Assembly (NCBI RefSeq): GCF_002764115.1
Contig: NZ_CP017942.1
Location: 124,001 to 188,000 of the forward strand
Length of the DNA stretch: 64,000 nucleotides
Direction: 5' to 3'
DNA from: Phyllobacterium zundukense
GTDB taxonomy: Bacteria; Pseudomonadota; Alphaproteobacteria; Rhizobiales; Rhizobiaceae
Part shown: one piece after another, positions 13,329 through 31,326 of the stretch
Numbering within the stretch: position 1 is the stretch's first letter
Layout of the letters: each line of letters begins with the position of its first letter
Made by a program: the position numbers and the translations under genes
The notes under the pieces: model-generated
Seen by the model: the letters and a program-made list of their open reading frames with translations, nothing else
Told to the model about the DNA's origin: nothing
The model's database searches: none

Positions 13329-13334
13329 GAGACG

Positions 13335-14861: not shown

Positions 14862-15010
14862 TTCCTATTTCCCTGGCCAATCCATTGTCGCAGAACAGCG
14901 TTACTAATGAAATATAATGGCAACTTCATGAAGCTTGTCAAACATTTCTATTGCAGTGCAACAATAAAAATATTTTGCCTATTTAATAATATTCTACAAT
15001 CAATGTGATC

Positions 15011-15047
15011 GTATTCTTGATATAACTTGCAGACAGTTTACCCGCAA
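15011..15047 (-). promoter_or_regulatory. predicted promoter of the 14861-6504 operon
   Basis: On the minus strand a -35-like TTGCGG (15042-15047) and a -10-like TATATC (15019-15024) are separated by 17 bases. The segment 15011-15030 matches 16 of 20 bases of the equivalent segment (27251-27270) ahead of the RTX gene. A MarR-type dyad abuts the -35 on the upstream side. Confidence 0.5.
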
Positions 15048-15048
15048 T

Positions 15049-15069
15049 TTACTTCAAAATTTGAACTAT
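15049..15069. promoter_or_regulatory. MarR-type operator, copy A
   Basis: The sequence reads TTACTTCAA-AAT-TTGAACTAT, with a perfect TTCAAA-A-TTTGAA core. Two further copies lie at 27317-27337 and 30713-30733, the last next to the MarR gene. The upstream position relative to the predicted promoter fits an activator site. Confidence 0.65.
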
Positions 15070-15128
15070 ATGTTTTACTCGACAAAAATTGCGTCGCGAC
15101 CGGCGTGTAGGCAAAAATAAGCATCCAG

Positions 15129-15155
15129 CGCCGGCGATATCTGAATTCGCCGGCG
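15129..15155 (-). terminator. possible terminator after galE
   Basis: A 9-bp stem CGCCGGCGA / TCGCCGGCG with a 9-base loop lies about 60 bases past the galE stop, followed on the minus strand after about ten bases by TTATTTTTG. The rest of 14862-15216 is A/T-rich and holds only the promoter and operator listed. Confidence 0.5.
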
Positions 15156-15216
15156 TTGCCTTCAGTTGACGGAGCAGACACGGTTGCTCAAACCTGTTGA
15201 TCCGGTCTCGCTTCAA

Positions 15217-16236
15217 TTATACGGCAATGCGTTCATCCAGTTCGGCGTCACGCCGGATGACCTGCAATTGACGCTCCCATGCCAGCGCATCGCCAACGAT
15301 CAGATCAAGATCGGCTCGCTGGGGCGTGAAACCAAATTCATTCCGGACACGTTCGTTGCCGGCCACCAAAACGGCCGGGTCACCAGCCCGGCGCGGCGCC
15401 GTGCGTACCGGAAAATCAACACCTGACACGCGCTTCACGGCATCGATGATCTCAAGCACCGAATAGCCATACCCGTAACCGCAATTGGCTGCCGTACTCT
15501 TGCCGCCTGCTTCGAGATAGTTCAACGCACTGAGGTGTGCCTGAGCTAGATCGCTGACGTGGATATAATCTCGAATGCAGGTCCCATCAGCTGTCGGATA
15601 ATCTGTGCCATAGACCTCGATATGCGAACGCTCGCCGGTTGCAGCCTGACTGGCAATCTTGATCAGGTGAGTTGCGCGCGGGAAGGACTGGCCGGAACGC
15701 AATTGCGGATCGGCTCCTGCCACATTGAAATAGCGCAGCGCTACATAATTGAAGTCGGGATGAGCGACAGCGCCATCGCGCAACATCCATTCCGTCATCA
15801 ATTTTGACGTGCCGTAAGGGGAGATGGGCTGGTGAGGCATATCTTCCGTGATGGGCGTCTTTTCCGGTTCGCCGTAGACAGCTGCCGTCGAGGAGAAGAT
15901 GAAATGCTTTATTCCCTCGGCAACCGCTGTTTCGATTAGCGCGCGCGATTGCACCGTGTTGTTGCGATAGTAGAAGAGTGGATCGCGTACGGAATCGGGT
16001 ACAACGATCGAGCCGGCAAAATGCAAGATCGCCGTGACATTGTGTCGACGGATCAGATCACGCACAAGCACCTGATCTCCGATGTCACCTTGGATGAAAG
16101 GAACGTCGTCGGGCACAAGCCAGGCAAAACCACAGCTCAAATCATCGAGGACTATAACGGATCTGCCTGCATCTTTGAGTGCGAGCACCATGTGGCTGCC
16201 TATATAGCCTGCACCACCTGTAACGAGAACTGTCAT
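15217..16236 (-). CDS. galE: UDP-glucose 4-epimerase
   Basis: A 339-residue extended short-chain dehydrogenase that interconverts UDP-glucose and UDP-galactose with bound NAD. It has the N-terminal GGAGYIGSH nucleotide-binding motif, the catalytic FSSTAAVYG serine/threonine region, YGTSK (Tyr-x3-Lys), and the GalE-typical YGTDYPTADGTCIRDYIHV segment. Length is usual for the family. As part of the exopolysaccharide operon it would supply UDP-galactose, as ExoB does in Sinorhizobium, which suggests galactose in the polymer. Confidence 0.93.
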   Translation of the reverse strand: MTVLVTGGAGYIGSHMVLALKDAGRSVIVLDDLSCGFAWLVPDDVPFIQGDIGDQVLVRDLIRRHNVTAILHFAGSIVVPDSVRDPLFYYRNNTVQSRALIETAVAEGIKHFIFSSTAAVYGEPEKTPITEDMPHQPISPYGTSKLMTEWMLRDGAVAHPDFNYVALRYFNVAGADPQLRSGQSFPRATHLIKIASQAATGERSHIEVYGTDYPTADGTCIRDYIHVSDLAQAHLSALNYLEAGGKSTAANCGYGYGYSVLEIIDAVKRVSGVDFPVRTAPRRAGDPAVLVAGNERVRNEFGFTPQRADLDLIVGDALAWERQLQVIRRDAELDERIAV

Positions 16237-16374
16237 GGGGAAACTCCTGCAACGCTGTTGGGGGGATTGTTTGTAAGAAGATGGTTTTTGCCAATTAACG
16301 AATTTTGCTTAGGTTTTCCTCCCTGTCGCTCTGAATTCCTCCCATGAAAATAGACTGACACTAAGCCGTTGGAT

Positions 16375-17562
16375 TCAGGCAACCCGACGAACCGAAGCCG
16401 GCGCCTGCTTTCCTGTCTCGAGCATCTTGTGATCGACACCATTCTCGGTGAGAAACCGGTGCATTTCCCCGTAAGCTCCATACCAGGCGCGATTGTATTT
16501 ATCGAACAACGACTGATCCCAGTAATCTTCCAGTCGGAATGGCTTGTCACCGAATACGTCGAAGCTTGGAATCTGATAGGTTTCGGCAAACTCGACCGTG
16601 CGGCTGTCGTAAGTGAAATAGATCGACGGCACGCCATTGGCCAAGGCCATAAGATTGCCGTGCAGGCGATATCCGAGGACTAGATCCTTGGATTGTACCA
16701 GCCTTTCATAATCGGCAACGACATCAGAATAGAACATGCGTTCGCGGTAGAGTTTTTCGACTGTTTCATCGAGGTACCAATCGGAAGCCCATTGGTTTGC
16801 CTTCAGCGCAGCAATTGCTTCTTCCTTTTGCTCGTCAGTGCCAAAGACCAGCTTCTTTTCTTCGACCTCACCCTGTGCCATCAGCGTAGCGTCAAAGCGG
16901 CTGGCCATTTCCTTCACGAGATCACGGTGAAACGTGAGATAGCGCTCGATATTCTGAGCGTAAGTCGGCGATACTTCCCGGCGAATGGTGATCCCGACAT
17001 TCCGCACGTTATCGAGCGCTGGCAATTTTACTCTCATATCCGGATCGTTGCGGCGGAAAGCCGTGGGACAACCGATAATACGCACATTGTGAATGCCAAT
17101 ATCGCCGAGGACCTGGGCCGAATATGCCCCACGCACGCCAACCGATACGGTGGAATCAGCGATGACGCGGAGCACAGTCTTGGTCTCTTCTGAAAGTTCC
17201 AGCTGCCCCTTGACCGGCGCCTGAGCGCCGATACCAAAGGCGATGACTGGCAGACCAAGTCGCTTGAGGACAGGGATCGCATCGCTCCAATCCATGTGCT
17301 GGTGGACATAGTTGGAGCCGCGCAGGATCACATAATCATATTCCTCGCGCAGGCGATCGATGTACTCCATCTTCGGGTTCACGATGGGCAAATCCGAGAG
17401 CTTGTCGTAGTTCATCAATTTCAACGACGAGTCGAAGACGAACGCGTCGCCGATATTGTGGTAGTGATTAATATTGCCCTGCACATTGCCGTACTGGTAC
17501 CAACGAACATTGTCGTGATCGTAAACTTCGCCGGATGGGATCATTACGAGTACACGTGCCAT
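16375..17562 (-). CDS. polysaccharide pyruvyl transferase family protein (paralogue)
   Basis: A 395-residue member of the polysaccharide pyruvyl transferase family, paralogous to 9106-10455. Shared blocks are YHNIGDAFVFD, VILRGSNYVHQHM, VIAFGIGAQAP, SVGVRGAYSAQVLGDIGIHNVRIIGCP and GYRLHGNLMALANGVPSIYFTYDSR. It lacks the long C-terminal tail of its paralogue. Two enzymes of this kind in one locus suggest two pyruvylated positions, or one catalytic and one divergent function. It lies between a GT4 gene and galE in the 26349-15217 gene train; the 138-base gap to galE holds no evident gene. Confidence 0.88.
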   Translation of the reverse strand: MARVLVMIPSGEVYDHDNVRWYQYGNVQGNINHYHNIGDAFVFDSSLKLMNYDKLSDLPIVNPKMEYIDRLREEYDYVILRGSNYVHQHMDWSDAIPVLKRLGLPVIAFGIGAQAPVKGQLELSEETKTVLRVIADSTVSVGVRGAYSAQVLGDIGIHNVRIIGCPTAFRRNDPDMRVKLPALDNVRNVGITIRREVSPTYAQNIERYLTFHRDLVKEMASRFDATLMAQGEVEEKKLVFGTDEQKEEAIAALKANQWASDWYLDETVEKLYRERMFYSDVVADYERLVQSKDLVLGYRLHGNLMALANGVPSIYFTYDSRTVEFAETYQIPSFDVFGDKPFRLEDYWDQSLFDKYNRAWYGAYGEMHRFLTENGVDHKMLETGKQAPASVRRVA

Positions 17563-17599
17563 GAGGTCTTCCTTCTTGTGGCGGTATAAGCTGAGAGGT

Positions 17600-18928
17600 T
17601 CAGCTTGCTTGCGAGAGAACGGCGTCCGTTCTCGCGGCGATGTTGAGCGGCTGGCGCCGATTGGATTTCAGCAAGTCGCTATAGAGAGCAAGGTGTTCTT
17701 CAGCGCAGTCGATGTAGTTTGTTGGCTGACGGATATCGTGATGCAGCCTATCCCAGATGAGGGGATCACTCAGCACTTCGGTGAAGCGGTCGGCAAGGTC
17801 CTCGGCACTGCGCACACGGAAATGCAGGCCGTCCTGGCCATCGCGTACCTTTTCGGCCATCCCACCGATGTTGGAACAGATGATTGGCCGGCGATGGTGC
17901 AGGGCTTCCTGAATGACGATCGGCGAGTTTTCCCACCAGATCGAAGGCATCACCACCCAATCGACCGATTGCATAAGGCGGGGCATTTCCGCATTCTGAT
18001 AGGCGCCATAGAATCTTACGCGCGGGCCAGCTTCCTCGATCAACTTTTCCATGCGGTCCTGAAAATCGCGTGGTTGTTTCTCGAGATTGCCGCCAAATAT
18101 CATCAAGCGGGAATCCTCACCCCACGTTTCCTCCGGCACGCGAGACACGGCGTCAATCAGAACGTCGATGCCCTTGAAAGGTGTCATCTGCCCAAAATAG
18201 GCGAAACGGTTGCGACGCGGTTTCGGTCCCGTGAGTTCGCGCGGGGGTGTTAGGCTGTCGATGGAAATCCCATTCTCCATCACACTGAGTTTGTTAGGAT
18301 CGAGACCCCATTCTGCGTATTTCCGGGCCAGAAAGACACTTGGCGCAACGAATGCATCAGCAAGTTCAAGCATACCACGCACAAACCGCTCGCGTTTCAG
18401 AAAGCGAGCCGGCGGAATATCGGGGAAGCAGGCATGGCAATCGATCGGCGAGGCCTCATTGCAGAGTTTCGCCGAACCGGCTTTTACCATCTGACCGTCA
18501 TTATTGCAGATCGACAGATACTCATGGAAAGTCACCAGAATGGCTGTGTCCGGCAACGCTTCGCGAATGGCGTAGAGAGTCTCAAGACCAAGGCCAAGCA
18601 CATGGTGGAAATGCACGACATGCGGATTAAAATCCCCGACAAAGCGCAAAAGGTCACGGCGGATTTCATCCGTGTTCTTGTTCGACAAATAGAAATGATC
18701 GTATTCGTCCGCATGGAAGAGGATTTCATCGCTACTACGGCGTAGGCTCATCAGAGCTGTCGTGCCATGGCGCGGGATCGGATGCCCCGCGCGTGCGAGA
18801 TACACGGACTGAACGCCGGGCAGCGTGTTCAGTCCCTTGTGCAAATTGTACGATGCGATCTCGCCGCCGCCGAGTGAAATACTCGGATGGGCATGCGAAA
18901 TCACCAGAACCCGTAGCTGTTCCGTCAT
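17600..18928 (-). CDS. GT4-family glycosyltransferase
   Basis: A 442-residue retaining glycosyltransferase with the GT-B fold. The N-terminus has VLVISHAHPSISLGGGEIASYNLHKG (acceptor-side glycine motif), the central part HFHHVLGLGLETLY and CHACFPD, and the C-terminal nucleotide-sugar site includes RFAYFGQMTPFKGIDVLI and WENSPIVIQEALHHRRPIICSNIGGMAE (EX7E type). It is closely related to the GT4 at 21987-23249, which shares CHSCFKDI and WWENAPLVIQEAQ blocks, so the two are duplicates. Its start overlaps the stop of 18925-21183 by four bases. Confidence 0.9.
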   Translation of the reverse strand: MTEQLRVLVISHAHPSISLGGGEIASYNLHKGLNTLPGVQSVYLARAGHPIPRHGTTALMSLRRSSDEILFHADEYDHFYLSNKNTDEIRRDLLRFVGDFNPHVVHFHHVLGLGLETLYAIREALPDTAILVTFHEYLSICNNDGQMVKAGSAKLCNEASPIDCHACFPDIPPARFLKRERFVRGMLELADAFVAPSVFLARKYAEWGLDPNKLSVMENGISIDSLTPPRELTGPKPRRNRFAYFGQMTPFKGIDVLIDAVSRVPEETWGEDSRLMIFGGNLEKQPRDFQDRMEKLIEEAGPRVRFYGAYQNAEMPRLMQSVDWVVMPSIWWENSPIVIQEALHHRRPIICSNIGGMAEKVRDGQDGLHFRVRSAEDLADRFTEVLSDPLIWDRLHHDIRQPTNYIDCAEEHLALYSDLLKSNRRQPLNIAARTDAVLSQAS

Positions 18929-21183
18929 GCCGGTACCTCCGTTGATGAGCTACGATCGGCTGATGGGCGATCTTTTGTGAGAATGTTTGCCCAGCGGGCA
19001 TCGAATACCTGGCGATCGATTCGTTCGATGAGGGCAATCGTCGACGCCTTGTCTGACACCGAAATGTCGTCGGAACCTAGCATCTGGGCCGACGGCAGCC
19101 AATAGGACTTGAGGCCAGATTGCTTGAGCTTCAGGCCGAGATCGAGACCCTTTTCATGCGTCCCAAGATATCCGCGCGTAAATCCATTCACTGAAAACAA
19201 CGCATTTCTGGGCAGGACACAGCATTCAAATGTCGCCGTGGCAACTTCCGTAGTCCCCATGCCCGTAACCGCATCTATGGGATAACCGGCATAACGGCTG
19301 ATCAAGGCACGATCGGATTGTGCTCCCGCGACCCATGTTCCGGCCCATCGAATCGAGTCGTCCTCATATGCAAGGGTAGGCGACAGCACACATTCCTTGC
19401 GGGCCTCATAGGCCGCCAGCAATTTGTGAAACCAGCCTGTGTTCCTCGGCAAAAGCGAGGCAGCAAGAAAGACAACACTTTCCGTGGAGACGGCCCGTGC
19501 GCCAACCTCCAGCGCATCATAAAGATCTTCGGAACCGCTGGCCGATACCAGGCGCAGACGCAGACCGTAGAAATCAGCCAGCCTGCGCACCTGTACACCA
19601 ATGCGATCGATAATCTCGGTCGCAGCGGCAATGACAATCGGCGCTCTGCGGGTTTCAGGATCAAGCGCGAGCAAGGCAAGGAGCGGCGCAATTTCTTCAA
19701 CGCGCTCATCAACACCGATAATGAGCGCAGGCCCGATGGCTTCCTCAAAGGCACCCAAATCAACAACGCCAAAGATTTCAGGGGCTGGCCGGCTCACGCC
19801 CCGCAACAACGGTACCAATTGCTGATCGACAATGTGGCGAAGCGCCCAGGCATTCGGATCAATCGCGCGAATTTGCCGAACGACCGCATCACGCGATGTG
19901 AGCCGGGTCAGCGTCAGCGGCATGAAGGCGCGCCGTGCATCGCTCAAATTAAGCTCCAGATAGAATGGGGCCGTGCTGTCACCTTCCAGTTCCGGTGCGA
20001 AGGCCACAAATCCGTGCGCATGTCGGTTGGGGTCGAGCCCCGCGTTGAATGGCGGCTGGTTGTCAAATTCTCGCGTGACATCTGGACGGTCTACGCGCGT
20101 CCAGTTGCCGTCGAGTTGTGTTTCTCCGCGATGGCGGCGCAGTTTCACGGTCTCTACATGGCTGTCCGGATCGAGCAGCCAACCGGAAACGAGAATGCCA
20201 CTGCCCTCAACACGAAACACATTGTCGATACCCATACGAACCGGGAATGGCAAGCTGGAAACCGTTTCCGTTCCATCAAAACGATTGGCAGCCGAACGCA
20301 TACGCAGAAGGACTTCTGTTGAACTGCGCACGCGAGGCAATATGGCTCGCACATGGCTGGGTGTCTCACGCGATCCCACCATCAGCCGCCGGTCGTAGAC
20401 CTCAGTAAAGCGCCAGCCCCTACGACCGCGGAAAAGGAGGCGTTCGATATCGTTTGGTTCGACCGCCTCATTCGCGAGCAACAAGCCGGCAAAACCGGAC
20501 GACTGCTCGTTCAAATCCGGCCTTGCGAAGACGCTGATTGCGCATTCGGCGAGGGAAGGGGTCCTGCCGCTGATCAGCAGCCGTGTCACGGAAGGCGTCA
20601 AGTCCTGCGCCCAACCTTGTACGAATATCTCGCCCTCATCGCTTCCACCGATCAGTTCGATACAGCCGTCGGAGCGCGCACCGGCCTGCAACAACACGGT
20701 GATCGCTGAAAGCTTCTTGCGGCCAATCGGACCCGAGATCAGGCCCTCCACCAGACCATCGATAACAGCTGGCAAATTGGACCCGGCAAGATCAGTGATC
20801 ATTGCGATCAAATCGCCTGTAGAGGCGGCGCGGCTGGCAAAGGCATAACGCGTCGCCTTTGCCTTATGCTGGAACATAATCGTTTTCAGCGAGCCTCGGC
20901 GCAGGATGTTGGTTGGAACAATGGCCACGAATCCGTGCGTGCCGGCGGGCGACGGTTCCTTAAGGGGCCAACTGACAAGAGTGACCTTGATGCTCATGGC
21001 GGGGTCGCCATTCAGGAAAGCCGCAACCTGTTCGGATGTCATGCTCCCAATGCCCAAGGCGAGGACAAGAGTGTCGTCGATAGGACAACCGACCACCATC
21101 TCGCCTTCCATAACCATCGGATGGCGTTCGGGAGCTTTACCGGTTCTCGTCACTGGCAGCACGTCTTTTTCATCTCGCAGCAT
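18925..21183 (-). CDS. GT2-like protein with degenerate catalytic motifs and GW-DP domains
   Basis: A 752-residue protein whose architecture matches the GT2 at 24088-26349 but whose glycosyltransferase part (about 500-740) looks inactive. Where the paralogue has VMLNSDVVP, this protein has VFLAASLLP, and the EDSDLCLK base motif is EKGLDLGLK. The N-terminal two thirds contain two beta-rich segments with the local 'GW..D' signature (GEIFVQGWAQDLTP and SGILVSGWLLDPDS, ending in HAHGFVAFAPEL). It may be a scaffold or partner of its paralogue. A divergent active enzyme is possible. Spacing to the flanking genes is tight, and it overlaps the GT4 downstream by four bases. Confidence 0.72.
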   Translation of the reverse strand: MLRDEKDVLPVTRTGKAPERHPMVMEGEMVVGCPIDDTLVLALGIGSMTSEQVAAFLNGDPAMSIKVTLVSWPLKEPSPAGTHGFVAIVPTNILRRGSLKTIMFQHKAKATRYAFASRAASTGDLIAMITDLAGSNLPAVIDGLVEGLISGPIGRKKLSAITVLLQAGARSDGCIELIGGSDEGEIFVQGWAQDLTPSVTRLLISGRTPSLAECAISVFARPDLNEQSSGFAGLLLANEAVEPNDIERLLFRGRRGWRFTEVYDRRLMVGSRETPSHVRAILPRVRSSTEVLLRMRSAANRFDGTETVSSLPFPVRMGIDNVFRVEGSGILVSGWLLDPDSHVETVKLRRHRGETQLDGNWTRVDRPDVTREFDNQPPFNAGLDPNRHAHGFVAFAPELEGDSTAPFYLELNLSDARRAFMPLTLTRLTSRDAVVRQIRAIDPNAWALRHIVDQQLVPLLRGVSRPAPEIFGVVDLGAFEEAIGPALIIGVDERVEEIAPLLALLALDPETRRAPIVIAAATEIIDRIGVQVRRLADFYGLRLRLVSASGSEDLYDALEVGARAVSTESVVFLAASLLPRNTGWFHKLLAAYEARKECVLSPTLAYEDDSIRWAGTWVAGAQSDRALISRYAGYPIDAVTGMGTTEVATATFECCVLPRNALFSVNGFTRGYLGTHEKGLDLGLKLKQSGLKSYWLPSAQMLGSDDISVSDKASTIALIERIDRQVFDARWANILTKDRPSADRSSSTEVPA

Positions 21184-21202
21184 CTAGAACCCCTCCATGA
21201 CC

Positions 21203-21976
21203 TCAAGGAAGGACCGATATTGACACGAGCGCTCCGGCGGCAAAGCCAACCAGAACAAACAACAGCAGGAACAATGGTTTGATATCGCCGCTGGATCGCT
21301 TTTGAAAACCCTCTATGCGCTTCTCCAGCCCGGCTACAACGCCATCCAATCGCATGAGGTGAACATCGAGTTCCGTCAAACGCTGGTTGACGTCTCCGCG
21401 CAGGCCCTCAATCGAACTGCTGACATCAATAAGATCAACAGAAGAACCGCTCCCTGTCCCATCAATGACGGGAGCGGGACGTTGCAGCGAGCGCTGGCTT
21501 ACCTGCAATTGGCGCTGCGCCGCCATCAACATGTCGAGTTTATCGAGAATGCGCGTCATCGGAGCCGCTATGAGCGCTTCTGCCGCCTGCTCATCGGGTT
21601 TCGGAACACGCAAGGCTTGTTCGACGCCTGCACCATTGATGGCAACGACAACCAGTTCGCCGGCCCGCATCGAAGCAAATTGAGGCAGCATGACATCGAA
21701 CGCATGCCCGCCATCGCCAATTCCGCTACGCTTCAGATCAGGGCGCTCCTTGTCGGCTATCGCTTCGGCAATCGGCTTGCCATCCAGAAGCACGCGGATC
21801 GTCAGTCTTCTGCCCGGAGCGGCGGGATCGAATGCCCAACCGAACAGGCGACCATCGTCGATGGCATCAACGCGTCCCTTCGTGGGTTCGACCTTGTTAG
21901 GCTGAGCATTGTCCTGCTCGGGGATGGCATTTGGCTTGACTGGCGCCTGTGCCGACACTTGTGTCACGATCGACAT
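21203..21976 (-). CDS. C-terminally membrane-anchored coiled-coil protein with a GW-DP domain
   Basis: A 257-residue protein of unknown function. Residues about 35-105 carry a beta-rich module (GRLFGWAFDPAAPGRR ... RPDLKRSGIGDGGHAFDVML) that recurs in rhizobial glycosyltransferase-associated proteins. Residues about 125-225 are helical and coiled-coil-like (LDKLDMLMAAQRQLQ, LRGDVNQRLTELDVHLMRL). The last 25 residues form one hydrophobic helix (PLFLLLFVLVGFAAGALVSI). The ATG at 21976 is chosen for its GAGAGGT site and because it avoids overlap with the upstream GT4. A role in organising the exopolysaccharide synthesis enzymes at the membrane is inferred from position only. Confidence 0.7.
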   Translation of the reverse strand: MSIVTQVSAQAPVKPNAIPEQDNAQPNKVEPTKGRVDAIDDGRLFGWAFDPAAPGRRLTIRVLLDGKPIAEAIADKERPDLKRSGIGDGGHAFDVMLPQFASMRAGELVVVAINGAGVEQALRVPKPDEQAAEALIAAPMTRILDKLDMLMAAQRQLQVSQRSLQRPAPVIDGTGSGSSVDLIDVSSSIEGLRGDVNQRLTELDVHLMRLDGVVAGLEKRIEGFQKRSSGDIKPLFLLLFVLVGFAAGALVSISVLP

Positions 21977-21986
21977 AATGTACCTC

Positions 21987-23249
21987 TCAGGCTGCTTCAA
22001 CACGAAGTGGACGCAGCGTCTCGATCAGGTCGAGATATCGTACCGCTGTCGTGTCGATTGTATCGGGGTGGCGTGCCCCAAGTGAAAGGACCTGACGCAA
22101 ATCAGGATCCTCGGCGATACGCCGCATGGCAGCCGCCAGGGCCAGCGGGTCATTTGGTGGAACGGTTAGACCATTGACACCGCTCTCGATCATCTCGGCC
22201 ATACCGCCAATATTGCTGGTGATCACCGGACAGTTCTGACCCTGAGCCTCCTGGATAACCAAGGGTGCATTTTCCCACCAGATGGAAGGCATGATCGCAC
22301 AATCGACCGTCGCTATCAGGTCCGCGATGTCTTCCCGGCGATAGGCGCCACGTCGTTGCACATTCGGCGACGTTTCGGCAAAGAGACGATCAATGTCCGC
22401 AACGAAACTTTCACTCTGGAACGGAGCGGCGCCGTGTACACGCAATTCGAAGTCGAGACCTTCGGAAATCAGATGTTTGGCCGCTTCGAGCAGCACCGTT
22501 GTTCCCTTCCACGGGTTGAGGTTGCCAAAGTAACCAAAAACCGGCCTCGTGCGCTGTGCGCTTTCTGGCTTCTTTGCCACGGGCCGTTCAGGTTGTCCGT
22601 TTGGGATCACACTGATCAATCGTTCGCAAAGACCCCAGTCAACATAGCGCTGCTTGAGAAATTCACTCGGCGCTACAAAGCCATCTACCGCACTCAAAAG
22701 CGATTTCAGATGACGCTCCCGCAGAACGAACTTGTCCAGGGCGATATCCTTGAAACAGCTGTGGCATCGATCAGGACTCGCGCCATGGCACAATTCTTTG
22801 CTCGTTGTTCGCACCATCAATCCGTCATGATGACAGATCGGATAATAATCGTGCAACGTCATGACGATTCTGCATTCGGGCAAAGTGCGACGCACGATGT
22901 GCGGGAATTCGGCACCCAGAAGCAGCAGGTGATGCAGATGGACAATGTCAGGCCGGAAATCGCGCAGCAATTCAACGATGTCCGGCACAATGCCGTAAAG
23001 GTCGACCTGGCTCATGAAGAAGCGATCAAAATGACCCGACCACAAAAGAATTTCATCACCATTGGTGCCGATGCTCTGGAAACTTGTACCCGGTCGCGCT
23101 TCACGATGGATATGATTGGTCGCACCCAGAAACAGCGCCTCGCATCCAGCGCGCTGATAGGCGCGGAAAAGATCATGGGCAAAGATCTCGGTGCCACCCG
23201 GATGCAGAGCCGGATGGTTGTGGGCCGCGACAAGAACACGGGAGGTCAT
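21987..23249 (-). CDS. GT4-family glycosyltransferase
   Basis: A 420-residue GT-B glycosyltransferase. Motifs include VLVAAHNHPALHPGGTEIFAHDL at the N-terminus, HLHHLLLLGAEFPHI, CHSCFKDIAL, FGYFGNLNPWKGTTVLLEAA, and WENAPLVIQEAQGQNCPVITSNIGGMAE with the EX7E-type signature. It is a paralogue of 17600-18928. The ATG at 23249 overlaps the TAA of the methyltransferase gene by one base and is preferred over a GTG at 23267. It presumably adds one sugar of the repeat unit; donor and acceptor are not evident. Confidence 0.9.
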   Translation of the reverse strand: MTSRVLVAAHNHPALHPGGTEIFAHDLFRAYQRAGCEALFLGATNHIHREARPGTSFQSIGTNGDEILLWSGHFDRFFMSQVDLYGIVPDIVELLRDFRPDIVHLHHLLLLGAEFPHIVRRTLPECRIVMTLHDYYPICHHDGLMVRTTSKELCHGASPDRCHSCFKDIALDKFVLRERHLKSLLSAVDGFVAPSEFLKQRYVDWGLCERLISVIPNGQPERPVAKKPESAQRTRPVFGYFGNLNPWKGTTVLLEAAKHLISEGLDFELRVHGAAPFQSESFVADIDRLFAETSPNVQRRGAYRREDIADLIATVDCAIMPSIWWENAPLVIQEAQGQNCPVITSNIGGMAEMIESGVNGLTVPPNDPLALAAAMRRIAEDPDLRQVLSLGARHPDTIDTTAVRYLDLIETLRPLRVEAA

Positions 23250-24091
23250 TACCTGTCCCCCTTGCACTCGGCGATGAACAAATCCTGGTAGTGATCAGCA
23301 GGAACACCGCGCCAGTGTCCAAATGATTTGGTCGTGATCGATAGGCCGGCATGCGTCAATGCATTATCCAGGAACCCATCGTCGAAGCCCACAGCTGCAA
23401 GTGGCGGCAACTCCGGAACAAACCAGCACGGCCCCTCGTCATAGCGTTGAAATCCGAGGCGTGCGTCGCGCTTGTTGAAAGGATTTTCCTGAGCCGATTG
23501 ATCAACCACGAAGGAGGTCATGAACAAGCGTCCGCCAGGCGCAAGTACGCGCTCCACTTCACGCAGATAGGCGCTCACTTCCTCATCCGGCAGATGGGTG
23601 ACAACCGACGTCATGATGATGAAGTCGAACTGTCTGTCATCAAAGGGGAGCACGAGCTCAAGTCCGTTGATTTCACCCTTGGGATTATAAAGGGAATGGG
23701 CGATATCCAGGTGGCGGAACTCAAAATTTGAATACGCCGAGCTGATCATCTGCTGGCACCAGTTGATACCACCGGCAACCGGATCGATCCCGCGATAACT
23801 GCCCTTTGCCGGGTCAAGATACTGGGTCAAAGGGACTGCCATGCGCCCTATACCACAGCCGATATCCAGAACGCGGCTGTCCGGCAACAAACCGCCTTTG
23901 CGAATGAAATGACCGAGAAATTCTGCGCCGACGGCTTGAAAATTACCATCGCCCACAAAAATGCTGTCTGGATCAGGGCGTGGCAAGAACCGGTTGCGCT
24001 GTACGATTTCCATCAGCCATTCGACATGATCATTATTGAACGTCGGAGTAAGTTCAGGTTGGGCTTTCTTGAGTGCAATAATCTCAGTCAA
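23249..24091 (-). CDS. class I SAM-dependent methyltransferase
   Basis: A 280-residue methyltransferase with the Rossmann-fold motif I VLDIGCGIGRMAVPL (about residue 75), acidic loop YRGIDPVAGG, and post-motifs PFDDRQFDFIIMTSVVTHLPDEEV and ERVLAPGGRLFMTSFVV. In this position it probably methylates a sugar intermediate or the polymer terminus, which can control chain length in other systems. The substrate is not indicated by the sequence. It overlaps the upstream GT2 by four bases (24088-24091) and the downstream GT4 by one base. Confidence 0.85.
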   Translation of the reverse strand: MTEIIALKKAQPELTPTFNNDHVEWLMEIVQRNRFLPRPDPDSIFVGDGNFQAVGAEFLGHFIRKGGLLPDSRVLDIGCGIGRMAVPLTQYLDPAKGSYRGIDPVAGGINWCQQMISSAYSNFEFRHLDIAHSLYNPKGEINGLELVLPFDDRQFDFIIMTSVVTHLPDEEVSAYLREVERVLAPGGRLFMTSFVVDQSAQENPFNKRDARLGFQRYDEGPCWFVPELPPLAAVGFDDGFLDNALTHAGLSITTKSFGHWRGVPADHYQDLFIAECKGDR

Positions 24092-26349
24092 GCGGCGCTC
24101 CTTTCAGATTTTTCACCAACGAAGGGAGCGATGGTGTCGTCCACCGCTTCGTCGAGATAGGTCGTCATCAATTCGGCAATGTCATCGTTCCACCGCTTCG
24201 TGTGGAGCCACGCATTGTATTGGCTCGCCAAGCCTCGCATGTAATCGGCGCTACGGCGGATTGACCGCCGTTCAAAGTGATAGAGAGCCACGCCGGGCTC
24301 ATAGGCGATTTGAAACCCGATCTGGCGAATTTTCAGGCATAGATCGCTGTCTTCATAGTCCCCGATCACGTAGTCCTCAGTGAAACCACCCACGAGATCA
24401 AAAATATCCTTGCGGGTAACGAGGCATGCACCTGTCACACCGGGTACCGTGCGAGCAATCTGAGCCGGTGAATAATCGCCGGGCATACCTTTATAGAAGT
24501 GATGGTTGAGCCAGATGCCGCGCTGATCCCTGGCAAAATAGAGCCCTGCATGCTGCAGCGAGCCATCTTCAAAGAGAAGTTTCGGTCCTACCGCACCAAG
24601 CTTTTTTTGCTCGAGCAAGGGCTTGACCAAAGCATCCAGCCAACCGGGCCCACATGGCACGACGTCGGAGTTCAACATCACTAGAATCGTGCCATTGGCA
24701 AGGCTCGCACCGGCATTGCAAGCCCGGGCATAGCCGCTGTTGCGATTCATGGTTGCCAGCTTCATGGGCAGGTCGTGCAGGATATGCAGGCCACCAAGCA
24801 GATGTTCCGTGTCATCCTGAATTTCAGGAGAATCGAGCACGAAAATAACTTCCGCATTCTTCACAAGCCACGGATCGGTTGCCATGGCCGAGAGCTGAAA
24901 ACGCAGAAAATCGAGATTCCGATATAGTGGAATGACGATCGAAGCCACAGGCGCATCTGGCATCACACCATATTCCTTGATATCCGCGATCCGGACCGTC
25001 TGGCCGAGCTTTTGCTCCACCTCCTTCAAGGCAGGCGCAAGAATATTTTCGAAAACCTGCTCTCGCGCATGTTGCGGCGGGACAGCACGCAAGATGCGGT
25101 TACGCTGAGCCGCCGGTTCAAATGGCTGCAGTTGCGGTACCAGCATAGTTGTCGCACCGGATGCGAGCCGCATCTGGAAACGCGGCTGCAGCAATGGACC
25201 TAGGTTTTTGCCCTGCGGGAGCCATGCAGCAAAGCCCGTTACATCAGCGCCAAGCCCATCCTCACGCTCGCCCGTTTTGCCGGGAAACTTGTAAAAATTT
25301 GGCTGGAGCGGCAGCGCGGTTCCATTCTCGGAAAGATATTCGATCTTGGCGAGCATTGCCGCTGGATCGTGGCTCCAGCCGCCAACAAGCAGGCCCCCGT
25401 CAAGCGCGAGCGCCAGATCTATTTCAGCGGCAGGATGTGTCGGAGATTTCGCAATCTGGCGGGTTGCCAAAGGTATACGCATCTGCATATCGATAGCAGT
25501 GGCGACACCGGCGCCCGGTACTTGCGCCAACTGGCGGACAAGAAACTCTCGCAGTTCCACATCACCTTGACGCTTCCCCCACCACTTCTGGAATTCAACA
25601 GGCTGGCCATCGTTGTCAGACAATTTGCGTACGGCGACACCATTCTTGCCGGAAAGCACAAGATGGAAAGATTGTGGCAGTGGCCGTGCCGACTCGACAA
25701 GAAGGTGGCACGATTGCCAACCCTTTTTGGGTTGACTACCTACGACAAATTTTATCGGCAGCACGGTTACGGCATTGGACGTGATTGCGTAGATGGCAGT
25801 AATATCGCCGAGGTCTGGATCAACCGCCGTTTCAAGGAGATGCTGCCCATCAATGGGTTGACCGCAAAAGCGGACCTGGCGCGGCTCAGGCGTCAGCGCG
25901 AGAGTAATTTCACGGGCGACACTGGCAAAGATTTGGTTTTGCGAAAGGCGAAAAGTGCTGCGCCATGTGCTCAGAATATTGTTGAGTAGTTTGATATGTC
26001 CGGCGGCCGTCAGATTGTGGACAGCGCGATCCACATCGAAGGAGGCAAGCTCAACTGCCGGGTAAAGGGTAGCCTGCTCGGTAGGACCGAGGGCACCAGC
26101 CGAAAGAGTAAGATGGATCGGCTCATCCTTGGTCCGCATGACCCAAAGAACACGCTGGCCGCCACTCTCAAGTGGAATGTTCAAGCTTACGAGCGGAACT
26201 GGTAATTCTTTCGTTACCAAAGTGCATTTTGTCGAGGTCCGGGTCGCGCCAGGAAGATCCCAGATCACGACGGCCACATCCGCACAGAGACGCGAGATCG
26301 AGATGCTCTCTGTGTCGCCTGCAAGATCCGTCGAATGGTCGAGGCTCAA
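24088..26349 (-). CDS. GT2-family glycosyltransferase with N-terminal accessory domains
   Basis: A 753-residue protein. The C-terminal GT2 domain (about 475-735) has SIVIPLYRNLDFLRFQLSAM, GYARACNAG, the metal motif in VMLNSDVVP and the base motif GDYEDSDLCLKI. The N-terminal half is beta-rich and includes a 'GW..DP' segment (GLLVGGWSHDPAAM ... DVTGFAAWLP, about 310-375). Its closest local relative is 18925-21183, which has lost the catalytic motifs. It starts at a TTG with GAAAGGG upstream, about 35 bases past a terminator behind the RTX gene. The layout recalls expE2 after expE1 in Sinorhizobium. Confidence 0.85.
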   Translation of the reverse strand: MSLDHSTDLAGDTESISISRLCADVAVVIWDLPGATRTSTKCTLVTKELPVPLVSLNIPLESGGQRVLWVMRTKDEPIHLTLSAGALGPTEQATLYPAVELASFDVDRAVHNLTAAGHIKLLNNILSTWRSTFRLSQNQIFASVAREITLALTPEPRQVRFCGQPIDGQHLLETAVDPDLGDITAIYAITSNAVTVLPIKFVVGSQPKKGWQSCHLLVESARPLPQSFHLVLSGKNGVAVRKLSDNDGQPVEFQKWWGKRQGDVELREFLVRQLAQVPGAGVATAIDMQMRIPLATRQIAKSPTHPAAEIDLALALDGGLLVGGWSHDPAAMLAKIEYLSENGTALPLQPNFYKFPGKTGEREDGLGADVTGFAAWLPQGKNLGPLLQPRFQMRLASGATTMLVPQLQPFEPAAQRNRILRAVPPQHAREQVFENILAPALKEVEQKLGQTVRIADIKEYGVMPDAPVASIVIPLYRNLDFLRFQLSAMATDPWLVKNAEVIFVLDSPEIQDDTEHLLGGLHILHDLPMKLATMNRNSGYARACNAGASLANGTILVMLNSDVVPCGPGWLDALVKPLLEQKKLGAVGPKLLFEDGSLQHAGLYFARDQRGIWLNHHFYKGMPGDYSPAQIARTVPGVTGACLVTRKDIFDLVGGFTEDYVIGDYEDSDLCLKIRQIGFQIAYEPGVALYHFERRSIRRSADYMRGLASQYNAWLHTKRWNDDIAELMTTYLDEAVDDTIAPFVGEKSERSAA

Positions 26350-26383
26350 TACGTTACCCTTTCATTCATATCGGAAAGAAAAA

Positions 26384-26409: not shown

Positions 26410-26421
26410 CAATATTCATTA

Positions 26422-27081
26422 TCAATGAACGACGAAGTAATCGCCCGGATGATTTGTGACCTCGTCGGCACTGACGCCAACGAGAGTGACGGAATCGCCA
26501 TGACCGAGGTCGACAACAACGTTATCGCCAACCTGCGTGACACGAGATGCCAAGTCATCGGCCGAGTGAATATCCTGGCCGTTGATACCGCTGGAGATTT
26601 GGAGGATGTCTTCACCAGGGGTAAAATCAAGCACGACGTCGTTGCCGCCGCCGCCATTGAACAAGAACACATCATTACCGGCGCCACCGACGAGAACGTC
26701 ATCACCTGCGCCGCCTGAAAGTAAGTCATTGCCGGCACCACCGAGAAGCACATCGCTTCCGGCATCGCCGAACAGGGTGTCAGACCCGGCGCCGCCCTGG
26801 AGAACATCTTCTCCAGCACCACCGAACAAGACATCATTTCCGTCGCCGCCGCTCAGGACGTCAGCTCCGTGTTCCCCGAAAAGAATGTCGGATCCATTGC
26901 CGCCGAAGAGGGCATCATCGCCCTTTCCACCGAACAACAGGTCGTTACCGTCATCCCCGAATATCGAGTCATCCCCTTTACCGCCCAAGACAACATCATC
27001 ACCGCCATGGGCGCGGATGAAATCGTCAAAACGCGAGCCAAACAAAACGTCGTCGTAGGCGCCGCCTTCTAGAGTGGCCAT
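26422..27081 (-). CDS. RTX-type calcium-binding secreted protein (ExpE1/WgeA-like)
   Basis: A 219-residue protein built almost wholly of about 15 tandem nonapeptides of the form GGxGxDxLx (residues about 6-140, for example GGKGDDSIF, GGAGNDLLS), which form a calcium-binding parallel beta-roll. The C-terminal 70 residues (VFLFNGGGGNDVVLDFTPGEDIL to the end) look like a type I secretion signal region; there is no N-terminal signal. The ATG at 27081 is chosen because AAGGAGAAGCAG precedes it. A longer frame begins at 27180. A type I secretion ABC/HlyD pair lies next to it. In Sinorhizobium, ExpE1/WgeA is a small secreted RTX protein of the galactoglucan locus; the same role is inferred. Confidence 0.88.
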   Translation of the reverse strand: MATLEGGAYDDVLFGSRFDDFIRAHGGDDVVLGGKGDDSIFGDDGNDLLFGGKGDDALFGGNGSDILFGEHGADVLSGGDGNDVLFGGAGEDVLQGGAGSDTLFGDAGSDVLLGGAGNDLLSGGAGDDVLVGGAGNDVFLFNGGGGNDVVLDFTPGEDILQISSGINGQDIHSADDLASRVTQVGDNVVVDLGHGDSVTLVGVSADEVTNHPGDYFVVH

Positions 27082-27250: not shown

Positions 27251-27287
27251 GTACTCAAGATATAATTTGCCATTAGAATAACAGTAA
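27251..27287 (-). promoter_or_regulatory. predicted promoter of the RTX gene
   Basis: On the minus strand a -35-like TTACTG (27282-27287) and a -10-like TATATC (27259-27264) are 17 bases apart. The 20 bases at 27251-27270 match those of the 14861 operon promoter at 16 positions. The whole 27082-27372 gap is strongly A/T-rich. Confidence 0.5.
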
Positions 27288-27316
27288 TTCATTTATACAA
27301 CTTCATTGCATGTAAT

Positions 27317-27337
27317 TTATTTCAAAATTTGAAATAC
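27317..27337. promoter_or_regulatory. MarR-type operator, copy B
   Basis: TTATTTCAA-AAT-TTGAAATAC contains a 19-bp perfect palindrome (TATTTCAAA-A-TTTGAAATA). It is the second of three related dyads in the locus and lies about 30 bases upstream of the predicted -35. Confidence 0.7.
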
Positions 27338-27372
27338 CAGCTGAATACAGGCATTTTAGCAAGGTTTTCCCG

Positions 27373-28791
27373 TTAATCTTCTCTAAACGCACGATTGAAG
27401 CTGTCGGAAATAGGCGATATGATATATTCAATCGCTTTGCGTGCCTTGTGTACGATTAACACTTCCGCTGGCATGCCGGGATAAAGTTTGACCGACGGGT
27501 TGGCGGCAAGCGACTTAGGTGCGATTTCTGCCCGAGCAACGAAATAAGGCGTATCGTTCTTTTCGTCGATGACCTGATCCGCCGCGATGTAGATGACCTT
27601 GCCGTCGAGCGGCGTCAGAGAACGTTGATTATAGGCAGTGAGACGGACCTGTGCCGGGGAGCCCACAACCACACTGTCAACGTCGCGTGGACTGATTTTC
27701 ATTTCAACGACCATGGGCTCATTCTCTGGTACAATATCAAGGATTGGCTCGCCGGCAGCAACAACGCCACCAGGTGTACGTAGCCGTATATTGGCGACTA
27801 TGCCGGCTTGCGGCGATCGTATTTCGACGCGACGCATCACATCCTTGGCGGCCACGATTCGCTCTTCCGCATCCGCTAATTCAACCTGACTTGTGGTGAT
27901 CTCTCCCGCAATCTCCGATTGCAGATCGCTTTCAATACCGGTCAATGCAAACTCGGCGCCAGCCTTTGCCTGTTCGGCCTTTGCCTTGTCGCCCGCATAC
28001 TCGCCGCGGTCACCAGCGAGTTCGCTGAGCCTCGTGTCGAGCTCGGTCAGCTTGGACTTTTGAGCAAACCCCTTTTTGACAAGCCCCGCAATCGCGTTCC
28101 GCTGCTCAGTAATCAATTCGATCTGCCGATCAGTTGCCGCGATTTGCGCCTCCGACGACTTTGCCTGCTCGGTATATTGCTCAATCGTTTTTTGCTGGAT
28201 ATCGATACGGCTCAGCTTCTGGGTGTAGCGCTTCTGGAAAAATATCTGTTCCGCCTTGATGGCACCCTCGGCGGAGATATCGCCTACCTCGCCAAAGTTA
28301 TCCGGGAACCTGATTTTCTTTTCGCCTGCCTGTTCCGCACGCAGACGCGCCAGTTTGGCGATCAAGCCGACCCGGCGACTCTGCAGGGATTGCAGATCAG
28401 AACGTGCCCTTGTGTTATCAAGCCTAATCAAGGGCTGGCCTACCGTCACTTCATCGCCCTCCTGCACCAGGAGACGATCAAGGATACCACCCTCAAAATG
28501 GCTGACTGTCTTGCGCTTCGAATCGACGATCACGGTGCCGAGCGCGACCGCGGCGCTACCCAACTCCGCCGAATAGGCCCAGCCGAAAAATCCACCGAAT
28601 GCCAGCACGATGGTCATTACCCCGGCAATGATGAGTTTGCGCAACGGAGAACGCTCGTCCTCCCGTTCGAGATCGATGGCCCATTCCGGCCGCACGCTTC
28701 CGAATTTGGTCGGCAAGTTTTCGCCCATCGACGTTGCGCGTGGCGCCAAAAGCTGTGTAACACGCTTTGGCAAATTGGTTTTGCCGGTCAT
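27373..28791 (-). CDS. HlyD-family type I secretion membrane fusion protein (ExpD2/WgdB-like)
   Basis: A 472-residue periplasmic adaptor. A single membrane helix lies at about residues 50-75 (KLIIAGVMTIVLAFGGFFGWAY), followed by a lipoyl-type half (GGILDRLLVQEGDEVTVGQPLIRLD), a long coiled-coil (about 135-300), and the second lipoyl half (VEIRSPQAGIVANIRLRTPGG). It connects the inner-membrane ABC exporter to a TolC-type channel, which is not encoded here. Its ATG overlaps the ABC gene stop by four bases. The likely cargo is the adjacent RTX protein. Confidence 0.93.
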   Translation of the reverse strand: MTGKTNLPKRVTQLLAPRATSMGENLPTKFGSVRPEWAIDLEREDERSPLRKLIIAGVMTIVLAFGGFFGWAYSAELGSAAVALGTVIVDSKRKTVSHFEGGILDRLLVQEGDEVTVGQPLIRLDNTRARSDLQSLQSRRVGLIAKLARLRAEQAGEKKIRFPDNFGEVGDISAEGAIKAEQIFFQKRYTQKLSRIDIQQKTIEQYTEQAKSSEAQIAATDRQIELITEQRNAIAGLVKKGFAQKSKLTELDTRLSELAGDRGEYAGDKAKAEQAKAGAEFALTGIESDLQSEIAGEITTSQVELADAEERIVAAKDVMRRVEIRSPQAGIVANIRLRTPGGVVAAGEPILDIVPENEPMVVEMKISPRDVDSVVVGSPAQVRLTAYNQRSLTPLDGKVIYIAADQVIDEKNDTPYFVARAEIAPKSLAANPSVKLYPGMPAEVLIVHKARKAIEYIISPISDSFNRAFRED

Positions 28792-30557
28792 GATCCTGCT
28801 GCTCCCATTTTCGGGCCAGTTGGGGTAATGGACGCGACCACATCAGTGCGCGGACCAAACTGGGTAATGCGACCGTTTTCGAGCACAAGTAGCTTGTCGG
28901 CCACCTGCATGATGGTCGGACGATGTGCGATCATCACAACAATGGCCCCATCATCGCGAGCCTGTTCGATGGCACGCATCAACGCTCTTTCCCCAACCGC
29001 ATCAAGATTGGCGTTCGGCTCGTCGAGCACGATGAGACGTGGGCGATTGTAAAGGCATCGTGCAAGACCAATCCGCTGACGTTGACCACCCGAAAGTGTC
29101 AGGCGCCCATCGCCCACCGGCGTGTCGTAACCGAGCGGCAGGCGCCCGATCATTTCATGAACATCGGCAAGGCGGGCCGCTTCGAGAACACGGTGGGGAT
29201 CGCCTTCACCCATCCGGGCAATGTTGTCCTTGATGGTCCCTTCAAGAAGTGCCACCGACTGCGGCAGGTACCCGGCAATCTCTCCGAATGAACTCCGTTC
29301 CCAGAGATAGACATTGTTCCCATCGAGAAAGACGCCACCGGAAGTGGGCTTGACGATTCCGATCATCAAGCGCGCCAGTGTCGACTTGCCGGCAGCTGAC
29401 GGGCCGACAATACCAAGCACTTCGCCTGGCGACAAAGTGAAGGAAATACCCTTGATGATCGGCATCTCGACGCCTGGGGCAGCATAGACGAGCCGATCAA
29501 TAATCAAGTCACCATGGGGTCTGGGTGTCGGCATGGTCTGCCGTACGGCAAGGTTCTGCGCGAGAAGCGCCTGAATTCGCTGCCAGTTGCCAACCGCCAG
29601 CACCCATTGGCGCCACGTCTCGACTATGTGGTCGAAAGGCATCAACAGCCGACCGATGATGATACTTGTCGCAATCATCGCGCCTGGGGTGATTTCCTGT
29701 TCCATGGCCAGCAGCGTTCCAGCGCCCAGCGTAGCGATCTGCACCATGAAGCGCAGTGTACGGGCAATGCTTGTCATGGCGCGACTGCGATTGCCACCAA
29801 GATCGAGCAAATCCAGCGCATTCAACTGCAATCCACGCCAGCGTCTCGCCAGCGCTGGCAACATGCCCATTGCCTCGATCGCCTCGGCATGGCGCAAGGT
29901 TGCGCCAATTTTGGAAATGGCCTCGACATTTGCCTGATTTGCATCTTTGAGCAGGCTGCGGGTCATTAGGTCGGTAATCACGCCGCAGCAAACAAGGATG
30001 ATCACCGCGACAACGCCGATAATTCCAAGGACCGGGTGCATAAGGAAAAGCACCCCAAGAAAAATTGGCGACCACGCGGCGTCGAGTGGTGCGCTCACGG
30101 CCGAGGACGTCAGAAAGGTGCGCAGTTCTGAAAGATCTCGCAGCGATTGCGTTGCCTTTGGAAGGCCCTGATCGACAGATGCCTGAACTGCAGCAGTCAG
30201 AACCGGGAGATTGAGGCGGCGTACGAGCGCGCTGCCCATGGCCTGAAACGACAAGGCACGAATAAATTCAAGAATACCAAAAACGATCAAGGCGCCGACA
30301 GCCAGCATCGTCAGCATGAGCAGCGTATCCGTGCTGCGGCTGTTCAGCACTCTGTCATGGACCTGCAACATATACAGAGGTACCGTAAGTTGCAGGAGGG
30401 CGATACACGCGCTCAGCAATACGGCATAGAGCAGGCCCGCCAAAAACACGCGGCGTGCCCGAAAAATCAGCGTTTGAGGGGTCGGTACAGTGGGCGTCAT
30501 CGCTTTTTTTCCAACATTGCTCTTGCCATTTGCATTGATTTGACGAGTATCAGTCAT
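28788..30557 (-). CDS. type I secretion ABC transporter (PrtD family; ExpD1/WgdA-like)
   Basis: A 589-residue inner-membrane exporter with a six-helix membrane domain (about 30-320) and an ATPase domain (about 345-580). Walker A is GPSAAGKST, the signature LSGGQRQRIGLAR, Walker B LIVLDEPNANLD and the switch region MIAHRPTIM. There is no C39 peptidase domain at the N-terminus, so it belongs to the PrtD/RTX-exporter group. AAGG lies a few bases before the ATG. It is divergent from the MarR gene, and the shared intergenic region carries operator copy C. It should export the RTX protein at 26422-27081. Confidence 0.93.
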   Translation of the reverse strand: MTDTRQINANGKSNVGKKAMTPTVPTPQTLIFRARRVFLAGLLYAVLLSACIALLQLTVPLYMLQVHDRVLNSRSTDTLLMLTMLAVGALIVFGILEFIRALSFQAMGSALVRRLNLPVLTAAVQASVDQGLPKATQSLRDLSELRTFLTSSAVSAPLDAAWSPIFLGVLFLMHPVLGIIGVVAVIILVCCGVITDLMTRSLLKDANQANVEAISKIGATLRHAEAIEAMGMLPALARRWRGLQLNALDLLDLGGNRSRAMTSIARTLRFMVQIATLGAGTLLAMEQEITPGAMIATSIIIGRLLMPFDHIVETWRQWVLAVGNWQRIQALLAQNLAVRQTMPTPRPHGDLIIDRLVYAAPGVEMPIIKGISFTLSPGEVLGIVGPSAAGKSTLARLMIGIVKPTSGGVFLDGNNVYLWERSSFGEIAGYLPQSVALLEGTIKDNIARMGEGDPHRVLEAARLADVHEMIGRLPLGYDTPVGDGRLTLSGGQRQRIGLARCLYNRPRLIVLDEPNANLDAVGERALMRAIEQARDDGAIVVMIAHRPTIMQVADKLLVLENGRITQFGPRTDVVASITPTGPKMGAAGS

Positions 30558-30712
30558 GTGTTATCTGCCTTGGAAATGACACAGCTGCCGGTTAGCCATA
30601 CGACCTTGGTCTAAGGCCAGAGACTAGTAAAGTATTACCGTGCAGAATGTGACAGAAAAAAGTTCATTTGGTGGGGAAATATGCAAGGGAGGGGTGAAAA
30701 TATACTCGCAAC

Positions 30713-30733
30713 TTACTTCAATTTTTGAAGTAA
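30713..30733. promoter_or_regulatory. MarR-type operator, copy C
   Basis: TTACTTCAA-TTT-TTGAAGTAA has perfect 9-bp arms and is the best of the three dyads. It lies 20 bases before the preferred start of the MarR gene and in the region shared with the divergent secretion operon, so autoregulation and control of both directions are possible. Confidence 0.75.
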
Positions 30734-30753
30734 ATTTGACCATGGAGACAAAG

Positions 30754-31326
30754 ATGATACAAAAACTTCTACGCGAAGGAGTGGAAGTCGAAACATCTAT
30801 TGACGGCTACGACGCCGCCGATTTCCCTGAAATTACCGCAGAAAAACAGGGACATAGACACCCAGTTCATACTGTTGTTGTAACACATTTCGAACTGGCA
30901 AGAATGATAGAAAGAGTGAATCGTCGCTTCGCTAGTTTGTTGAGAACAGAAATGACGAAGCTGGGAATTGAAGATGTTGGCCCAGCCCAGGCGATGGTTT
31001 TGATGGCCATCGGCGATGTCGAACTTTCCGTCGGGGAACTGCTGGACCGGGGTCATTACGTCGGTTCAAACATTTCCTATTATCTAAAACAGCTTGCCGA
31101 TGGGGGATACATCGACAGGGTCGCATCCCAACGGGACAAGCGGTCTGCCCGAATTCGGTTGACGGAAAAAGGAGAGCAGCTTTGTGCTAATTTGCGCAAC
31201 GCGGGGGGGGCATACAACCGCGTGCTCGCCAGGGATGCCGATGATCTCCGTAATCTTGAGATCGCGTTCCAGACCTTGCACAGACTTGAACTGGTTTGGG
31301 GCAATGCCGCACGATACGGCATCTGA
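30754..31326 (+). CDS. MarR-family transcriptional regulator (ExpG/WggR-like)
   Basis: A winged-helix regulator of about 190 residues. The core VTHFELARMIERVNRRFASLL, then LSVGELLDRGHYVGSNISYYLKQLADGGYIDR (recognition helix) and the wing SQRDKRSARIRLTEKG are typical of MarR. The ATG at 30754 is chosen because GGAG lies six bases upstream; ATG 30742 is an alternative. The frame is open back to 30640, but that would place the dyad at 30713-30733 inside the gene. By position and family it matches ExpG/WggR, the MarR-type activator of the galactoglucan genes in Sinorhizobium meliloti. It is the likely binder of the three dyads in this locus. Confidence 0.85.
   Translation: MIQKLLREGVEVETSIDGYDAADFPEITAEKQGHRHPVHTVVVTHFELARMIERVNRRFASLLRTEMTKLGIEDVGPAQAMVLMAIGDVELSVGELLDRGHYVGSNISYYLKQLADGGYIDRVASQRDKRSARIRLTEKGEQLCANLRNAGGAYNRVLARDADDLRNLEIAFQTLHRLELVWGNAARYGI

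Follow-up and report, generated by a model that had tools for sequence, protein, structure and literature searches.

Three conserved dyads in a Phyllobacterium galactoglucan-type gene cluster and a fourth before an unlinked RTX gene point to an extended WggR regulon

Three near-identical dyads, A, B and C, were found in an exopolysaccharide gene cluster within a window of Phyllobacterium DNA (the whole stretch analysed, 64,000 nucleotides; positions 124,001 to 188,000 of contig NZ_CP017942.1). Judged by sequence comparison, the cluster is the Phyllobacterium counterpart of the galactoglucan (exp/wg) cluster of Sinorhizobium meliloti, and its MarR gene is a wggR/expG homologue. A WggR dimer probably binds all three dyads and coordinates the wga, wge and wgd genes together with its own level; most likely a fourth dyad is bound as well, through which WggR would control the unlinked gene of an RTX protein, here termed D. 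On this evidence the regulon is real and well conserved. Its core is ordinary, and two extensions were seen: a well-supported unlinked target, and a swapped operon in which the site was retained.

The first-pass annotation of this DNA had described three near-identical dyads, each in a gene start region (that of the 14861-6504 operon, the RTX gene and the MarR gene), and direct reading of the letters gave the same cores and arms. Dyad A (15049-15069; TTACTTCAAAATTTGAACTAT) has a perfect core of 13 bp and is the predicted WggR site of the wga operon, 187 bp upstream of the operon start at 14861. Dyad B (27317-27337; TTATTTCAAAATTTGAAATAC), with a perfect core of 19 bp, is the predicted site of the wge (RTX) operon and lies 235 bp upstream of position 27081, where the RTX gene likely starts; the open reading frame (ORF) as listed extends to 27180. 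Dyad C (30713-30733; TTACTTCAATTTTTGAAGTAA), with perfect arms of 9 bp, is the predicted site for wgdA and wggR. It is located 155 bp upstream of the wgdA start (30557) and only 20 bp upstream of the likely MarR start (ATG at 30754, preceded by GGAG), and is common to the MarR gene and the secretion operon, which is divergent from it as had been noted. No strand is assigned to the dyads. Scanning the window at up to three mismatches matched only these three places (six strand hits); 100 dinucleotide shuffles of the window gave a mean of 0.16 hits and at most 3, and none of the 100 reached six.

The whole genome (6,208,009 bases in 6 contigs) was also scanned. Five places matched with up to two mismatches: A, B, C, C1:3752019 and C2:186442. 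Random frequency across the genome, which the annotation had named as evidence against the regulon, was not what the scan gave, three of the five places being A, B and C. The single MarR regulon over three promoters is supported by homology and by shared dyad places, and it probably extends beyond this locus. The place at C2:186442-186461 (L080:2943-2962) is a two-mismatch dyad within AT-rich DNA, flanked by two ORFs that have no Pfam match. At up to three mismatches the genome gave 28 strand hits versus 25 for a control with the reversed pattern, and three-mismatch matches alone therefore carry no weight. A chance origin of A, B and C was ruled out by the shuffles, the genome-wide scarcity and the conservation across related loci.

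The regulator gene (30754-31326, + strand) encodes a MarR family protein of 190 aa, with a Pfam MarR_2 match of 1.9e-12 scanned from a longer ORF (30640-31326). In the alignment with S. meliloti WggR it was 67% identical over 184 aa; the 26-residue recognition stretch SVGELLDRGHYVGSNISYYLKQLADG was identical and the winged helix near-identical. The gene is divergent from wgdAB and adjoins wgcA, as in galactoglucan-type clusters. Likening the MarR protein to ExpG/WggR, as the annotation had done, is borne out by this identity, by the recognition stretch and by the shared cluster. For S. meliloti, binding of WggR (ExpG) to conserved palindromes upstream of wgaA, wggR/wgdA and wgeA is described in the literature (PMC1403797, PMC3233446), and mutation of the palindrome abolishes recognisable binding, as told in passages from reviews (PMC1403797, PMC3233446, PMC3418255, PMC10458429). 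The window resembles this system in its regulator, in the gene order wge-wgd-wggR-wgcA and in the three dyad places. The idea of a three-promoter WggR regulon is right, but it is not new for the family. Among the matches listed in a search of titles and abstracts in open PubMed Central, there was no study of the WggR regulon in Phyllobacterium and no paper tying WggR to an unlinked RTX gene.

Conservation of the dyads was followed in loci collected by WggR sequence. Relatives were found in Phyllobacterium (87-99% identity), Brucella/Ochrobactrum, Sinorhizobium/Ensifer, Mesorhizobium and others. Of 56 loci, the archaeal L076 (38% over 67 residues) was excluded and 55 were counted, with a total of 1,102,043 bases; one strand was scanned, as the pattern is near-symmetric, at a threshold of up to four mismatches. 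Further plasmid matches to WggR comprised 124 records, also from Azospirillum and Paracoccus, and the dyad counts rest on the 55 loci. Dyad C was kept at its position before wggR in all 55 loci. Dyad B was kept in 47, within the stretch that holds the wgeA promoter, and dyad A was at its usual place, right of wgcA, in 43 (L069 had two hits within the A stretch). The 12 loci without A at the usual place are Phyllobacterium or Rhizobiales loci, and wgaA was not found in their available flank. No dyad was detected outside these three stretches in the 1.10 Mb on the strand scanned. The reversed pattern gave 14 hits over the 55 loci at the same threshold, so weak single matches mean little. In S. 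meliloti the same three places were occupied in L060 and L077, the latter with 0 mismatches at C and 2 at A.

The exact narrow pattern was found at 29 places over 20 of 20 Phyllobacterium genomes, and its reversed control at none. By coordinates these are 20 C sites, 2 A sites, 5 sites before D, one before another RTX gene (G002) and one elsewhere (G009). The gene in G002 (C76:191182, L113:5183) is a second RTX gene on another contig, with its own dyad 175 bp upstream; by eye it resembles the RTX gene following D, and its dyad is perhaps an independent gain. Among 31 genomes outside Phyllobacterium the exact pattern was present in 23, inside cluster loci by coordinates, and the reversed control occurred at one place, in G047. 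At up to two mismatches 18 of 19 genomes were matched, with four single places outside cluster loci (G023, G038, G043 and G050).

The fourth dyad, at C1:3752019, belongs to the largest contig, which is presumably the chromosome. It stands 126 bp upstream of the gene that encodes protein D (622 aa, with 15 RTX (PF00353) stretches). With the relative of D in G019 as query, matches at E<=1e-30 were obtained in 18 of the 20 Phyllobacterium genomes. A close relative was present in 12, with 65-100% identity across almost the full query or 70-75% across the N-terminal 340-380 residues; the other six matched more weakly (37-51%) and two gave no match. G012, with a long match of 37% containing one internal stop, was counted as having no D, and G014 gave no D match. 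A dyad with 2-4 mismatches precedes D in 12 of the 12 D genomes. Its distance from the start is 112-126 bp in 11 of them; in G015, where the start is uncertain, it is 84 bp. Five of these sites fit the narrow pattern and the other seven rest on the promoter scan.

That the dyad before D is a leftover, or a chance AT-rich palindrome without function, was considered unlikely. The AT-rich promoter is in favour of such an origin, as are the five other RTX ORFs of the genome, whose best matches have 4 to 6 mismatches, and the isolated exact hit in G009, which lies 266 bp upstream of an apparently unrelated ORF with a predicted length of 168 aa. However, a chance palindrome fits poorly with a site kept in all 12 genomes, 11 times at nearly the same distance, while pairwise identity in the aligned DNA upstream has dropped to values as low as 40%. 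In the alignment the dyad and the promoter after it were kept, with little likeness before the dyad between distant genomes, and shuffles of these D promoters reached up to three mismatches in 7 of 3600 cases and up to four in 73 of 3600.

The dyad was rejected as a feature of RTX genes in general. Among 14 RTX ORFs in the stretches searched, a dyad with up to three mismatches was found only at WgeA and D. Two weak candidates, C3:486359 and a second copy of WgeA, were likewise kept out of the regulon, the reversed control yielding 14 hits at up to four mismatches. The first is a four-mismatch dyad 113 bp upstream of an RTX gene of 441 aa at C3:486493 (+ strand; L167:4494), a spacing like that of D. 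The second, at C3:514668 (+ strand; L275:2669), is an RTX gene of 201 aa distant from the cluster, with the same N-terminus as WgeA and a poor dyad of five mismatches 226 bp upstream, near the spacing of site B.

Protein D was accompanied in its genomic distribution by an unusual wga operon. In the window the wga operon lies beyond galE at the wge end of the cluster and not right of wgcA. Its wgaA product, termed type II, was 28% identical to that of S. meliloti, 26% to that of Phyllobacterium sp. 628, 83% to a P. zundukense protein and 82% to one of S. shofinae. Type II wgaA (73-100%) was found in 12 of the 20 Phyllobacterium genomes and type I (23-26%) in six, and two gave no match at E<=1e-10. 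The 12 type II genomes are exactly the 12 with D. All 12 carry a dyad-like site of 0-4 mismatches 137-187 bp before the wgaA start. In a family sample of 297 genomes type II wgaA (E<=1e-60) was found in four, all of this genus; the sample did not surface the S. shofinae protein, which was reached by another route. On a tree of the wggR region the type II genomes are split into three (G006, G013, G015) and nine, separated by the six type I genomes, with a support of 0.985 for the nine plus the six. The split therefore implies at least two joint changes, counted on the printed tree; the tree is one of the cluster and not of the species, exchange of the cluster could blur it, and the match of the same 12 genomes amounts to few independent events. 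In the P. zundukense locus L242 (21844-30912) the place right of wgcA that is taken up by the type I wga operon in other species holds a block of VirB-type secretion genes.

The polymer made by the window cluster may not be galactoglucan itself, because its wga operon diverges from that of S. meliloti (wgaA 28%, wgaB-like protein 38%) and no rfb-type family was seen among the five ORFs scanned in 6504-14861, whereas S. meliloti has four annotated rfb genes. The other differences from the S. meliloti regulon are the location of wga at the other cluster end and the fourth dyad before an unlinked RTX gene. Plasmid p_2 of Phyllobacterium sp. 628 offers a comparison within the genus. This large plasmid carries the same cluster, its wggR being 95% identical, and has dyads at B, at C and upstream of wgaA; it differs in having a type I wga operon at the S. 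meliloti position. LdtR-type activators have targets that differ from those of WggR. They are similar as MarR-family activators, and the name ExpG occurs in two LdtR papers.

Another MarR protein could in principle be the binder of the dyads. The genome holds two further MarR relatives of WggR, 52% and 37% identical, and the recognition region of the closer one (C1:253205-253777, L105) reads NLSYYLKQL against NISYYLKQL, so its DNA preference could be close. The wggR frame of G019 is seemingly interrupted (139 of 191 residues matched), yet its D gene keeps the dyad, which fits a different binder. A similar case was observed in the P. zundukense locus L242 (20001-20571; also L199), where wggR is in two pieces and the gene is unannotated; the interruption in P. 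zundukense and G019 seems to be a pseudogene or a sequencing error. A match to wggR was obtained in 20 of 20 Phyllobacterium genomes and the C dyad stands beside it in these and in all 55 loci, whereas the 52% paralogue is present in nine and missing at E<=1e-20 from 11, six of which (G001, G004, G005, G010, G018, G019) have D with its dyad. In addition, the 250 bp before the paralogue match start held nothing better than 6-9 mismatches in 9 of 9 loci, two of the nine matches not beginning at a start codon. Two other repeats were seen there, both unlike the dyad: TTCGCA-N2-TGCGAA about 57 bp before the paralogue in 4 of 9 loci, which may be its own site, and TACAATA-N4-TATTGTA, reported in this genome only. 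Binding of the dyads by the paralogue or the third relative, at least at D, appears very unlikely, and WggR is the likelier binder.

In another reading, the dyads would serve an unrelated regulator or act as leader RNA hairpins, and would be kept only through promoters common with wggR. It draws on the capacity of perfect inverted repeats to form hairpins and on the action of PhoB, MucR and ExpR at the same S. meliloti promoters, given in excerpts of PMC3233446 and PMC10458429. This reading is very unlikely in view of the location of the sites in this genome, which at A, B, D and wgd are 126-235 bp ahead of the gene, with C between divergent genes, and of the agreement with the three reported S. 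meliloti palindrome places. In addition, no terminator-like structure was found near any of the four dyads in the stretches scanned.

Several other observations weigh against WggR control of all four sites, besides the interrupted frame of G019. A B site with up to four mismatches was missing in 8 of the 55 loci, including L056 on a short contig, and the B site of S. meliloti itself has four mismatches in L077. The A-type dyads of type II operons are weakest and degenerate in G005, G007 and G015. The two RTX genes that follow D have no dyad of their own. Outside the genus, RTX matches to D (E<=1e-25, 37-53%) were found in 10 of 19 genomes and none had a dyad nearby at up to two mismatches, a threshold that would miss D sites with more. 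Reviews report a PHO box overlapping the WggR dyads in S. meliloti; a simple consensus matched none at the dyads here, and it missed the S. meliloti box as well.

In the arrangement favoured here, a dimer of WggR would bind the 21-bp dyads A, B and C and thereby coordinate wga and wge for the synthesis of a galactoglucan-type exopolysaccharide; through C it would coordinate wgd, for export of the helper RTX protein, and set its own level. It would also bind the fourth dyad and control the gene of protein D. The upstream distances of 187 bp for A, 235 bp for B, 155 bp for wgdA and 126 bp for D would fit activation or relief of repression, and binding at C, so close to the wggR start, could limit the expression of wggR itself. 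What is deduced from sequence is that WggR binds the dyads in this organism, that it controls D and activates at A, B, D and wgd, and that it may limit itself at C. The dyads do not give the sign of control, because both activation and repression by WggR have been reported and the MarR start is no more than 20 bp from C. Excerpts describe WggR as activating or slightly inhibiting by condition (PMC3233446, PMC10458429), and the introduction of PMC3418255 lists wggR among activated genes. Scans of the four promoters with a sigma-70 consensus gave 1, 2, 0 and 1 hits versus shuffle means of 1.1, 1.4, 0.5 and 0.7.

The naming of the wga-wge genes follows reviews. The individual wge letters are our own assignment, presumed from gene order. 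On the + strand wggR is followed by a wgcA homologue (31353-32591, a glycosyltransferase, 76% identical to that of S. meliloti). Homologues of wgdA (28788-30557, type I secretion ABC transporter, 76%, above the TIGR01842 cut-off), wgdB (27373-28791, HlyD-type adaptor, 66%) and wgeA (26422-27081, RTX calcium-binding protein, 69%) are on the - strand. The rest of the wge operon (15217-26349, - strand) comprises wgeB-G homologues, a pyruvyl transferase and a galE-type epimerase. Identities to the annotated S. meliloti pSymB genes were 71% for wgeG, 66% for wgeC, 60% for wgeE, 59% for wgeB and 48% for wgeF; the best matching piece of wgeD fell on wgeG. The type II wga operon (6504-14861, - strand) encodes a DUF6212 protein (wgaA), a wgaB-like glycosyltransferase, a pyruvyl transferase, a GH16 protein and an SGNH/TPR protein. 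An adenylate/guanylate cyclase-domain protein (32967-34247) adjoins the cluster, and one was also seen near the cluster in L021, L022 and L078.

The distribution of D and type II wga leads to a further, tentative proposal, which we put forward as possible and not as probable. The Phyllobacterium WggR regulon may have gained D as a trans target on another replicon, travelling with the cassette of type II wga genes. Protein D would then work with the type II polysaccharide, either in the matrix or in handling the polymer, and might leave the cell through WgdAB; WggR would be the common switch of the polymer, its exporter and this partner on both replicons. That the polymer has an RTX partner is plausible, because the absence of galactoglucan in an S. 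meliloti tolC mutant was explained by the unsecreted RTX protein WgeA, according to PMC2912261. No type I exporter was seen among the three ORFs scanned next to the D cluster, and the genome holds four PrtD-type exporters above the family cut-off, including WgdA, so WgdAB may be the exporter of D.

Judged by anatomy, the three cluster sites indicate that a well-studied switch for a rhizobial slime polymer persists in several genera. What is new is the prediction, from a short dyad, of one extra target on another replicon, which suggests that the same switch controls more than had been thought. If true, the finding would show clearly how a regulator can stay in control when its product genes are replaced by others, and it would suggest that the polymer has an as yet unstudied RTX protein for a partner.

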